A stretch of 64,000 nt of DNA from Ignavibacteria bacterium (GTDB lineage Bacteria > Bacteroidota > Ignavibacteria > Kapaibacteriales > UBA2268): NCBI GenBank assembly GCA_026417135.1, contig JAOADV010000002.1, positions 136,985 through 200,984 on the forward strand, written 5' to 3'. The notes below the pieces were generated by a model. The model saw nothing but the letters and a program-made list of their open reading frames with translations. It was not told the DNA's origin and did no database searches. Shown piece after piece: positions 22,801-26,833 of the stretch (its first letter is position 1; each line of letters begins with the position of its first letter). A program made the position numbers and the translations under genes.

Positions 22801-23883
22801 ATGCGTAGGAAAATGATTAGAAGTGGTTATAGTTTTTCAATCCTGCTTTTCGAGATTCTTTTTGTGTTTTCCCTTGTTCTTTTTTACAGTTGCGAAAAGC
22901 CGGCGGCCACTTCCAATCTTTCAGAAGAGAAAGATTTCTCCGTACCACCAAAGGGTTTCCCACCTATACCTTTCCCAAAAGAAAATCCTTATTCAAGGGC
23001 AAAATTTGAACTTGGGCGCCGATTGTTTTACGAGAAACTTTTGGTTCGCGATAGTTCTTTCAAATCTTGTTCACATTGTTTAAAGCAAGAATACAACTTC
23101 GACAACAATATTCCAAATACTCTTGGATATAACAGGATTGCTGAATTTCGCACAACTATGACCTTGACTAATGTTGCTTACTATCCGCGACTTTTTTGGG
23201 ATGGTCGCTTAGAAGGAGCACAGATTGAGCGTGTAGCCTATAGAAGTATGTTCTTACCATATATATTTGGGAACGACACCAATGTGATTAATTCAAGACT
23301 TACAAACCATCCAATATATCCCAAATTATTTCGAGAGACTTTTGGAGAAAATGCCAAACCTTCGGCTTGGTTAGCTGCACAAGCAATAGCAACATTCGTG
23401 CGATGTTTAGTAAGTGGAAATTCAGCTTACGACAGATATATTCGCGGCGATTCCAATGCTTTGACAGCATCTCAAAAAAGGGGTATGGTTCTCTTTTTTA
23501 GTGAACGAACTAATTGCTCGGTGTGTCATTCAGGATTTCTGTTCTCTGACTTTAAATTTCATAATACTGGAAACACTTTACATTACTTCGATTTAGGCAG
23601 ATTTTACGTTACTGGTCGTTACGAAGATAGATATAAATTTATGACGCCTTCCTTAAGAAATGTTGAAGTTTCCGCTCCTTATATGCATCACGGAATGTTT
23701 AAAACATTAGAAGAAGTTTTGGAAAGTTACAATCGTGGCGGCTTCCCTTCCATAAATAAAGATAGTATTGTTAAACCATTGAATTTAAACGAACAAGAAA
23801 AGCAAGACTTAATAAATTTTCTAAAGTCTTTAACAGATTGGAATTTCTTAAGAAATCCAGACTTTTCTGAACCAAAGTGGTAA
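22801..23883 (+). CDS. Di-heme cytochrome c peroxidase family lipoprotein lacking the first heme histidine
   Basis: A 360-residue member of the bacterial cytochrome c peroxidase/MauG family. A lipoprotein signal ends at 'LVLFYSC', so it is membrane anchored. The second heme motif is intact (CSVCH, residues 239-243). At the first heme position the sequence is CSHCL (residues 90-94): both cysteines are kept but the axial histidine is leucine. 'FWDGR' and 'TPSLRNVEVSAPYMHHG' are typical of the family. The next gene is a close paralogue with both motifs. It may be a mono-heme electron carrier or have an altered active site; catalytic activity is doubtful. An alternative start is the ATG at 22813. 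Confidence 0.88.
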   Translation: MRRKMIRSGYSFSILLFEILFVFSLVLFYSCEKPAATSNLSEEKDFSVPPKGFPPIPFPKENPYSRAKFELGRRLFYEKLLVRDSSFKSCSHCLKQEYNFDNNIPNTLGYNRIAEFRTTMTLTNVAYYPRLFWDGRLEGAQIERVAYRSMFLPYIFGNDTNVINSRLTNHPIYPKLFRETFGENAKPSAWLAAQAIATFVRCLVSGNSAYDRYIRGDSNALTASQKRGMVLFFSERTNCSVCHSGFLFSDFKFHNTGNTLHYFDLGRFYVTGRYEDRYKFMTPSLRNVEVSAPYMHHGMFKTLEEVLESYNRGGFPSINKDSIVKPLNLNEQEKQDLINFLKSLTDWNFLRNPDFSEPKW

Positions 23884-24015: not shown

Positions 24016-24042
24016 TTAGTGTAATTTTTGAAGATTAATGTT

Positions 24043-25086
24043 ATGAATAAAACAGTTATATTAAAAATACTTTTGTTTTTTTTGATTCTCTTTCTTTTCA
24101 TTTGTTGCGAAAATTCAATAAAAGAGCCAAAGGATTACGAGTTCAATTATTCATCTCCTCCGCCAGGTTTCCCTCCAATTCCTTTTCCAGTTGATAACCC
24201 TTTCTCGAGTTCGAAGGAAAAGCTCGGACGATATCTGTTCTTCGAAAAAATACTTTCGCGAGATTCATCATTCAGCTGTGCAAGTTGTCATAATCCAAAA
24301 TATGCCTTTGCTGGAAATGTTCCAAATCCATTAACTATCAATAAATTTCCATTATTTAGAAATACTCTCTCTTTAGTTAATGTTGCTTATCGAAGGACAT
24401 TAGGATGGAGTGGGGAAGATATTACATTAGAGCATGCTATATATAATGATTTTTTCAGCCCACTTTTTTTCGATAACGATACAAATGTAATATTTCAAAG
24501 ACTGAGCAGTCATCCATTTTACCCGAAGATGTTCGAGGAAGCATTTGGAAAAGGAGTCAAACCTTATCCATACCTAGCTGCCAAAGCGATTGCAACATTT
24601 GTTCGAACACTCGTCTCTGGAAATTCTCAATACGATAAATATCTACGCGGCGACTCGAATGCTTTAACAACTAAGCAAAAGTTGGGGATGAGTCTATTTT
24701 TTAGCGAAAGAACAAAATGTTCGTTTTGTCACAGCGGCTTTTTATTTACTAATGAAAAATTCCACAATACCGGTACAACACCACACTATTTTGACTTTGG
24801 AAGGTACTACGTTACTGGAAAATTGGAAGACCGAAGTAAACTCAAGACTCCTTCGTTAAGAAATGTGGCTTTGACGGCTCCATACATTCACGATGGAACA
24901 ATGAGAACCCTTTGGGATGTAATTGAAAATTATAGCCGTGGAGGTTTTCCTTTTTTCAATAAGGATACAATAATTAAACCTTTAAACTTGACATACGAAG
25001 AAAAGGAAGCTCTTGTCGAATTTCTTAAAGCATTAACAGATATGGAATTTATCAACTCTCCACGCTTTAAAAGTTTTGGCTATTGA
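24043..25086 (+). CDS. Di-heme cytochrome c peroxidase family lipoprotein
   Basis: A 347-residue peroxidase/MauG-family protein with a lipoprotein signal ending at 'FLFICC'. Both c-type heme motifs are complete: CASCH (79-83) and CSFCH (226-230). 'FHNTGTTPHYFDFGRYYVTGKLEDR' and 'TPSLRNVALTAPYIHDG' follow. Family members reduce hydrogen peroxide with electrons from small carriers or, in MauG-like cases, oxidise protein side chains. The start is the ATG at 24043; a TTG five codons upstream is in frame. It closely resembles the preceding gene over its full length, showing a tandem duplication. Confidence 0.9.
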   Translation: MNKTVILKILLFFLILFLFICCENSIKEPKDYEFNYSSPPPGFPPIPFPVDNPFSSSKEKLGRYLFFEKILSRDSSFSCASCHNPKYAFAGNVPNPLTINKFPLFRNTLSLVNVAYRRTLGWSGEDITLEHAIYNDFFSPLFFDNDTNVIFQRLSSHPFYPKMFEEAFGKGVKPYPYLAAKAIATFVRTLVSGNSQYDKYLRGDSNALTTKQKLGMSLFFSERTKCSFCHSGFLFTNEKFHNTGTTPHYFDFGRYYVTGKLEDRSKLKTPSLRNVALTAPYIHDGTMRTLWDVIENYSRGGFPFFNKDTIIKPLNLTYEEKEALVEFLKALTDMEFINSPRFKSFGY

Positions 25087-25140: not shown

Positions 25141-25908
25141 ATGATAGATAGGAGAGATATATTAAAGCTCCTCTTTACCGCTATTGTAACGACACCATTT
25201 TTTCCTCATAAAATTCTTGGGAAAATTACACCAGACCTTAAACAAAAGGGTGACTCTTTGTTGGGAATATATGGAATAAGTTTAATAGACTATCCCGATT
25301 TGCAAAAAATTTGGGGCTCTGTTCGTATTAAAATTCAAGGAACTCTAATGTTTTATCCTAAAGTAATTATTGTTCGAGTACCAAAGGAAGAATATAATGT
25401 GGAGTTTATTGCAATTTCTGAACGATGTCCCCACGAAGGTTTCATCGTAAAAGATTTCGACCCCGAGTTGAAAATATTTGAATGTCCTGGCCACGGGACT
25501 CTGTTCGACGTTACTGGAAAATATGTTTGGGGGCCAGCAGCCCGCGACCTCGAGAGAATACAGGTCGAATACAATGGAACTGACACAATTTATCTTGAAA
25601 TTCCACTTTATCCACATAATGTCGAAGACCTAAATCCAAAAGAGAATTTGAACATAAATTTAATACGCGATATAGTCTCTCAAGAAAAACCTACTATCGA
25701 ATTTCAAATGACATTGGAAACTGTCTCGAATATAAAGATAAGCCTTTATGACTCTTTGGGCCGCTTAGTCTCTACATTATTCGAAGGAAATACCGATAGT
25801 AGATATTTTTCTTTCCCAGTCAGCTACTTAAAAGATGGAATATATTTCTTGAGATTATTCTTGAATAATCAACCAAAGATTACCAAAAAAATTATTATTG
25901 CAAGGTGA
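25141..25908 (+). CDS. Rieske [2Fe-2S] protein with a C-terminal T9SS sorting domain
   Basis: 255 residues in three parts. The N terminus has a twin-arginine-like signal ('DRRDILKLLFTAIVTT'), as expected for a cofactor-containing exported protein. The middle is a Rieske domain with both ligand boxes, Cys96-x-His98 ('RCPHEG') and Cys115-x2-His118 ('CPGHGTLFD'). From about residue 182 it is a T9SS type A sorting domain ('SLYDSLGRLVSTLF' and 'LKDGIYFLRLF' are the diagnostic strands), which normally directs a protein through the outer membrane to the cell surface. The protein is thus predicted to be a surface or secreted electron carrier. Its stop overlaps the next start by 4 bases. Confidence 0.88.
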   Translation: MIDRRDILKLLFTAIVTTPFFPHKILGKITPDLKQKGDSLLGIYGISLIDYPDLQKIWGSVRIKIQGTLMFYPKVIIVRVPKEEYNVEFIAISERCPHEGFIVKDFDPELKIFECPGHGTLFDVTGKYVWGPAARDLERIQVEYNGTDTIYLEIPLYPHNVEDLNPKENLNINLIRDIVSQEKPTIEFQMTLETVSNIKISLYDSLGRLVSTLFEGNTDSRYFSFPVSYLKDGIYFLRLFLNNQPKITKKIIIAR

Positions 25909-26444
25909 AGATTAAAATAACGCGTAGGTTGTTTTTAAAGGAACTATCTGATTTAATAAAGGGTGTCGGTGTTAGTGTAGTTATTTTACCTTTGATATCT
26001 TGTGAAAATGATTGGATAGTTCCACCAAAAATTTCAGGGAAGAGCATAGAATTAGATTTGACAAACGAAAGAAGCGATATTTTAAACTTGCCAGTGCTTA
26101 ATTTTCTTGGCGCTGGCTTGACAAAGCAATTTGAGGAAGTTAACTATGGTATTCCAGTTATTATTGTTCGTTTTAAGCGAGAAAATAAAGAGGATGATTT
26201 CCTATGTTTTTCAGGGATGTGTACTCACGACCAATGCTTTGGAAAGAATAAGGTTCGCGCTCCCTTAAAAATAGAAACTTTAAGTAATGGAGAAAAAGTT
26301 TGCCGTGTTATATGCACTTGTCACGGGTCTGAATTCGATTTACTTAGTGGTGGAAAAGTTCTAAAAGGACCTGCAGAAAAACCTTTACGAAAATTCGAAT
26401 GCTCTTTTAATCCTTCAAAAAACATATTAACGATTTACTACTGA
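25905..26444 (+). CDS. Rieske [2Fe-2S] lipoprotein with a Tat-type signal
   Basis: A 179-residue Rieske protein. It begins at a GTG that overlaps the stop of the previous gene (GTGA). The N terminus has a good twin-arginine motif ('TRRLFLKEL') followed by a hydrophobic stretch ending in 'LPLISC', a lipobox, so it should be a Tat-exported lipoprotein. The cluster ligands are Cys106-x-His108 ('MCTHDQC') and Cys137-x2-His140 ('CTCHGSEFD'); extra cysteines between them may form the disulfide usual in high-potential Rieske proteins. It resembles the stand-alone Rieske subunits of quinol oxidising complexes, but no cytochrome b gene is nearby. Confidence 0.88.
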   Translation: MKIKITRRLFLKELSDLIKGVGVSVVILPLISCENDWIVPPKISGKSIELDLTNERSDILNLPVLNFLGAGLTKQFEEVNYGIPVIIVRFKRENKEDDFLCFSGMCTHDQCFGKNKVRAPLKIETLSNGEKVCRVICTCHGSEFDLLSGGKVLKGPAEKPLRKFECSFNPSKNILTIYY

Positions 26445-26833
26445 TGAAAAAGGCTTGTGGTCTTGTTTTCATAGCAATTGCATTGCTAACAAGTTGTAAT
26501 GAAACCTCGATTCATAATCCCGAAGAAATAATTATTCCAGATTCTAATGTTAGTTTTCAAAATCACGTTTTACCGGTATTGCGTTACTCTTGTGGATTGT
26601 CGTATTGCCACGGAGAAATAGCACCTCAAGCAAACGTAATGATATACGATTATTATACTCTGATGTTTTCTTATGGAGGTGCTCTTGTGATACCAAGGCA
26701 ACCCGATGGAAGTGTTCTTGTGCAAATTATCGAATACAGATTGCCACATAAACCCACAATTGTTTGGAAAATTACCGAGAATCAAAGGAAGGGAATACGC
26801 CGCTGGATTTTAGAAGGTGCGTTTAATAATTAA
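26444..26833 (+). CDS. Small lipoprotein with a cytochrome-c-like heme motif
   Basis: 129 residues. The signal ends in 'ALLTSC' (lipobox). 'NHVLPVLRYSCGLSYCHGE' holds a Cys-x4-Cys-His motif, a longer spacing than the usual CxxCH. The rest ('VIPRQPDGSVLVQII' and 'ITENQRKGIRRWILEGAFNN') matches the small cytochrome c-like lipoproteins of Bacteroidota, where the terminal 'I..W..EGA..N' helix is typical. Whether heme is attached to the x4 motif is uncertain. The ATG shares one base with the stop of the preceding Rieske gene, so the three last genes of the operon are coupled. Confidence 0.72.
   Translation: MKKACGLVFIAIALLTSCNETSIHNPEEIIIPDSNVSFQNHVLPVLRYSCGLSYCHGEIAPQANVMIYDYYTLMFSYGGALVIPRQPDGSVLVQIIEYRLPHKPTIVWKITENQRKGIRRWILEGAFNN

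Follow-up and report, generated by a model that had tools for sequence, protein, structure and literature searches.

The window, a stretch of 64,000 nucleotides that is part of a 2.24-Mb, 98%-complete genome (G000), of an uncultured Kapabacteria-type bacterium, encodes a 255-residue protein, Rieske-CTD, which we regard with some confidence as a [2Fe-2S] electron carrier brought to the surface of the cell in folded form, first by Tat and then by T9SS, and as part of an outer-membrane redox relay in its genus. The protein would acquire its cluster in the cytoplasm and cross the inner membrane in folded form via Tat; its type A tail would be recognised in the periplasm, and after passing SprA/PorV it would be anchored or released at the surface by PorU. 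In the genus, it may work with two MbnH/MauG-like di-haem lipoproteins, a Tat-exported Rieske lipoprotein and a Cx4CH lipoprotein, which together would form the relay. We infer cluster loading, surface location, the electron-carrier role and the redox partners. T9SS substrates are folded when they pass the outer membrane, and the Fe-S and molybdopterin proteins transported by Tat are likewise folded in transit (PMC9251779). Neither a Tat-then-T9SS route nor a T9SS Rieske protein or other T9SS redox cargo was found in the literature searched (open-licence papers only). If the proposal is true, two folded-protein export machines are linked in series, a cargo loaded with its cofactor in the cytoplasm shows directly that T9SS carries folded, cofactor-bearing proteins, and redox proteins with iron-sulfur or molybdenum centres can be placed on the outside of a Gram-negative cell.

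An earlier reading of this DNA from its letters alone (the sequence-only reading) had described an export signal, a Rieske domain and a T9SS tail within a single frame of 255 residues, and this frame is indeed present:

25141..25908, + strand: Rieske-CTD protein, 255 aa, ATG to TGA, with Tat-type N-terminus, Rieske domain and T9SS type A sorting domain
25147..25224, + strand: twin-arginine signal region, residues 3-28 (DRRDILKLLFTAIVTTPFFPHKILGK); RR in 36/36 aligned family members, TatC encoded in the genome
25246..25620, + strand: Rieske fold, residues ~36-160, with ligand boxes C96-P-H98 and C115-P-G-H118
25642..25905, + strand: T9SS C-terminal sorting domain (Ig-like sandwich), residues ~168-255, from profiles and predicted structure

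In profile searches, the Rieske domain scores 32.3 bits against PF00355 (cut-off 20.3, residues 75-138), and the cluster ligands C96, H98, C115 and H118 are those named in the sequence-only reading. The C-terminal domain, which that reading had assigned to T9SS type A, is of the T9SS type by two profiles: PF18962 (Por_Secre_tail) matches residues 172-253 with 35.8 bits (cut-off 27) and TIGR04183 matches residues 188-253 with 34.2 bits (cut-off 23), both matches ending 2 residues short of residue 255. The N-terminus (MIDRRDILKLLF) carries its twin arginines at residues 4-5 in the motif DRRDILK. None of the Tat signal profiles matches the protein of the window, which counts against export by Tat; among the 36 family members, RR is invariant, TIGR01409 is reached by 5/36 (E 0.01 or better) and PF10518 by 3/36.

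The expected succession of a Rieske domain and an Ig-like sandwich was also obtained by structure prediction. An AlphaFold2 model built on nine aligned sequences has a mean pLDDT of 80.6, with a low-confidence linker at residues 165-181. Residues 36-160 of the model align to solved Rieske domains (VIA; 8hn2 Z 10.3, 5cxm Z 10.3, AioB Z about 10), and residues 168-254 align to Ig-like sandwiches with a VIA Z of about 9. In one known T9SS cargo the tail forms a beta-sandwich domain (PMC4804311), and the predicted layout is that expected of a Rieske domain joined to a T9SS tail.

Rieske-CTD resembles known T9SS type A cargo, such as the gingipains of Porphyromonas gingivalis, in its C-terminal Ig-like sorting domain and in the presence of translocon and sortase in the genome. 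It differs from such cargo, mostly hydrolases and adhesins with Sec signal peptides (PMC5445135, PMC4804311), in its Tat signal and its iron-sulfur domain. By motif inspection, a twin-arginine N-terminus stands where described T9SS cargo has a Sec signal peptide, though the protein may use Sec, and the description of T9SS cargo with Sec signal peptides (PMC5445135) is counted against export by Tat and T9SS in series.

In 395 genomes of the phylum, a search with the single sequence gave full-length relatives from several families and also from G096, a genome of another class, and a profile search gave full-length matches in about 35/123 genomes of the order. Other families of the class also encode the protein (e.g. 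G208, G490, G494, G499, G505, G506 and G516, from a class-wide search), and G096 was the only such genome outside the class among the genomes sampled in a phylum-wide profile search. A first scan of contig sequences with the single protein detected no relatives, whereas an alignment-based scan did detect them in MAGs assigned to Candidatus Kapabacteria/Kapaibacterium, Ignavibacteria and the Bacteroidetes/Chlorobi group. The family alignment comprises 36 full-length proteins from 35 genomes, all counts being those of sampled genomes, with 22-55% identity to the protein of the window. Scanned singly, the members reach PF00355 in 34/36, PF18962 in 33/36 and TIGR04183 in 32/36 cases. Eleven positions are invariant in 36/36 (M1, R4, R5, L54, C96, H98, C115, H118, G126, G233 and Y235), a set that includes both twin arginines, every Rieske ligand and, in the sorting domain, G233 and Y235. 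Judging from this alignment, Rieske-CTD is a conserved family and not an accidental fusion. Moreover, since dozens of relatives keep both export signals, a finished electron carrier is probably displayed outside the cell in these bacteria.

The same alignment bears on the idea that Rieske-CTD is secreted with a Rieske domain that has lost its cluster and acts as a scaffold or adhesin instead. In G423 and G422 (L102:1465-2271 and L103:1468-2274), the second ligand box is longer by one residue and reads CVKGH instead of CxGH, as might be expected of such a protein. Nevertheless, the four ligands are invariant in the aligned family at 22-55% identity to the window protein, and a protein without a cofactor would gain nothing from the Tat route, which makes this explanation very improbable.

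Tat-exported Rieske proteins are otherwise known from b6f/bc1 complexes and from arsenite oxidase (AioB). With these Rieske-CTD shares the Rieske fold, the CxH...CxxH ligands and Tat export, and they are its best sequence and structure matches; it lies far under all equivalog cut-offs, has a T9SS tail added, is encoded near neither a cytochrome b nor an AioA partner and belongs to a clade without the disulfide cysteines. Identity as a bc1/b6f Rieske subunit was rejected on the score against NF045928 (35.2 bits vs 250), on neighbouring ORFs without cytochrome b and on the missing disulfide cysteines, and identity as an arsenite oxidase small subunit was rejected on the score against TIGR02694 (32 bits, cut-off 95.65) with no AioA partner nearby. 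In the Rieske-CTD clade the ligand boxes read CPHEGF and CPGHGT and thus lack the cysteines of the bc1-type disulfide. Absence of this disulfide goes with a low redox potential compared to bc1-type proteins, and a lower potential than that of bc1-type Rieske proteins is therefore suggested for Rieske-CTD by its sequence.

Classical Rieske subunits are held in the inner membrane by an uncleaved Tat anchor. Rieske-CTD might be anchored there in the same way, as in bc1/b6f; the C-terminal sandwich would then be a relic or serve for docking, and the protein would act in the periplasm as part of a respiratory chain. No obvious A-x-A cleavage site is seen in its N-terminus, so that an uncleaved membrane anchor is possible, and the models nearest in sequence are those of PetC and AioB. 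Elsewhere in the order, in several families, a nuoE-like gene (PF01257) often lies directly upstream of the Rieske-CTD gene (L121:6838-7314, L075:1003-1488, L126:5464-6003), which also favours a role of this kind. Nevertheless, the hydrophobic stretch of the signal is only about 14 residues long, and neither a cytochrome b nor an aioA gene is found nearby. Moreover, the order also contains tail-less Tat-Rieske homologues, whose matches stop near profile position 150-165; the tail, which exceeds the cut-off of the sorting profile, is thus a separable feature that the Rieske-CTD family has retained. Permanent residence in the inner membrane is for these reasons considered unlikely.

Passage on to the surface would depend on machinery that is encoded in the same genome. 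G000 encodes SprA (737 bits over the main stretch), the PorU sortase (803 bits) and TatC (187.5 bits) as well as several proteins of the PorV family, the best of which scores 282 bits, and has 75 TIGR04183 matches, so that T9SS core genes, as presupposed by the sequence-only reading, are there. Frames behind the other 74 tail matches were collected, five of them cut at a contig or region end with N-termini not visible. Only two tail-bearing proteins of the genome have a clear twin-arginine signal: Rieske-CTD and an IorB-like molybdopterin protein (SRRRFIFG; MoCoBD_1, MoCoBD_2 and Por_Secre_tail, the last at 48.1 bits), which answers the suggestion that further T9SS proteins with redox cofactors be sought in this genome. 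Its locus lies outside the window:

L227:6010-8812 (G000:C63): IorA-like [2Fe-2S] subunit, then Tat-signalled IorB-like molybdopterin protein with T9SS type A tail

The [2Fe-2S] subunit, of 148 aa and without a signal, is encoded immediately upstream of the IorB-like gene. Because the two tail proteins with a Tat motif are a Rieske protein and a molybdopterin enzyme encoded beside a [2Fe-2S] subunit, their sequences suggest that T9SS in G000 takes over cofactor-loaded Tat substrates. Molybdopterin and [2Fe-2S] subunits matching the IorB-like protein and its upstream partner are known from Tat-exported molybdenum hydroxylases of the IorAB/PaoABC type; the IorB-like protein of G000 differs from these in carrying a T9SS tail. 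Tat substrates of this kind receive their cofactors in the cytoplasm. Orthologues with RR and tail occur across the order, where 8/9 of the longer ones tested reach TIGR04183; in G385 and G196 the orthologue is shorter and stops ahead of the tail.

In the order, 12 genomes encode both Rieske-CTD and the tailed IorB-like enzyme (Fisher p about 1e-4, shared ancestry uncorrected), and in 5 genomes the enzyme is present and the Rieske protein absent. With ancestry uncorrected and given these enzyme-only genomes, an electron partnership between the two stays a lead. A broader proposal, possible but rather doubtful, is that Tat and T9SS in series provide a general route by which assembled redox-cofactor proteins reach the outer surface. 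The Rieske carrier and the molybdopterin/[2Fe-2S] hydroxylase, an enzyme of two subunits of which the iron-sulfur one has no signal and would travel with the other, would then form an extracellular electron chain without multihaem cytochrome conduits. No CxxCH was found in the 74 other tail-bearing frames (five of them N-terminally cut), and thus no classical T9SS multihaem cytochrome. In one T9SS-tail protein (L168, G000:C18:10527-10763), the sequence NGCTCHGS close to the N-terminus may be a variant haem motif. Multihaem proteins (up to 13 CxxCH) and another Tat-type Rieske protein are encoded at L079:7429-14471 (G000:C60), probably as a separate respiratory system.

The candidate relay partners of Rieske-CTD in the genus are encoded around its gene, with both di-haem genes upstream:

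22801..23883, + strand: MbnH/MauG/CCP-type di-haem family lipoprotein, paralogue A; CSHCLKQ replaces the first haem motif, second CxxCH intact
24028..25086, + strand: MbnH/MauG/CCP-type di-haem family lipoprotein, paralogue B; both CxxCH intact
25905..26444, + strand: second Rieske protein, 179 aa; Tat-type TRRLFLK, lipobox LISC, CTHDQC...CTCHGS
26444..26833, + strand: small lipoprotein with one Cx4CH motif (CGLSYCH), conserved in the genus

The GTG start of the second Rieske gene overlaps the Rieske-CTD stop (GTGA), and the ATG of the Cx4CH lipoprotein gene overlaps the stop of the second Rieske gene (TGATG); the small lipoprotein has no Pfam or NCBIfam match. Other members of the genus share this gene order, and it is partly kept, with some genes lost, elsewhere in the family. 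Most of the Rieske-CTD family lies outside the MauG gene cluster, and the relay partner is therefore not general. The two di-haem proteins score 243 and 264 bits against the MbnH-family model TIGR04039, under its cut-off of 362.85, and 163 and 173 bits against the MauG model TIGR03791, under its cut-off of 443.85. In several genera, paralogue A has a conserved CSHC[LM]KQ where the first CxxCH is expected, so that this motif lacks its usual proximal His.

A tryptophan of Rieske-CTD follows the presence of these enzymes. Trp58 (25312-25314) is found in 9/9 members with an adjacent di-haem gene and in 1/26 without one, a further member lying at a contig end where its neighbourhood is not visible. 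CorA and MopE are surface proteins in which a Trp is oxidised to kynurenine, and they are co-transcribed with a di-haem peroxidase (PMC3912023). Like MopE/CorA with SACCP/CorB of methanotrophs, Rieske-CTD is a surface protein (as predicted here) encoded beside a MauG-family di-haem enzyme (PMC3912023); however, CorA and MopE are copper proteins and not Rieske proteins, the Rieske-CTD locus encodes two enzymes, one with an altered first haem motif, and its Trp oxidation is only putative. By analogy, Rieske-CTD in MauG-bearing lineages might mainly be a substrate of the neighbouring MbnH/MauG-like enzymes, which would oxidise Trp58 as proposed for SACCP/CorB acting on MopE/CorA and so yield a modified protein at the surface that binds metal or takes part in redox chemistry. 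Both the Trp58 count and the TIGR04039 scores of the neighbours speak for this, although these scores are under the cut-off and scans of the neighbouring genes gave no MbnP-type partner. All Trp58 carriers belong to one family, so that the pattern is confounded by ancestry and may reflect a single inherited event, and genomes without the enzymes still keep the Rieske-CTD protein. A main role as enzyme substrate thus appears quite unlikely compared with that of a surface electron carrier, and Trp58 itself may be taken as a testable target, a lead.

Other neighbours of the Rieske-CTD gene vary. A rhomboid-type gene lies downstream in some families of the order, and in G096 a different Tat-type Rieske protein is encoded directly after the Rieske-CTD gene. 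Tandem pairs of Rieske-CTD genes occur at L122:5989-7747 (G472), on G494:C2 and on G506:C36.
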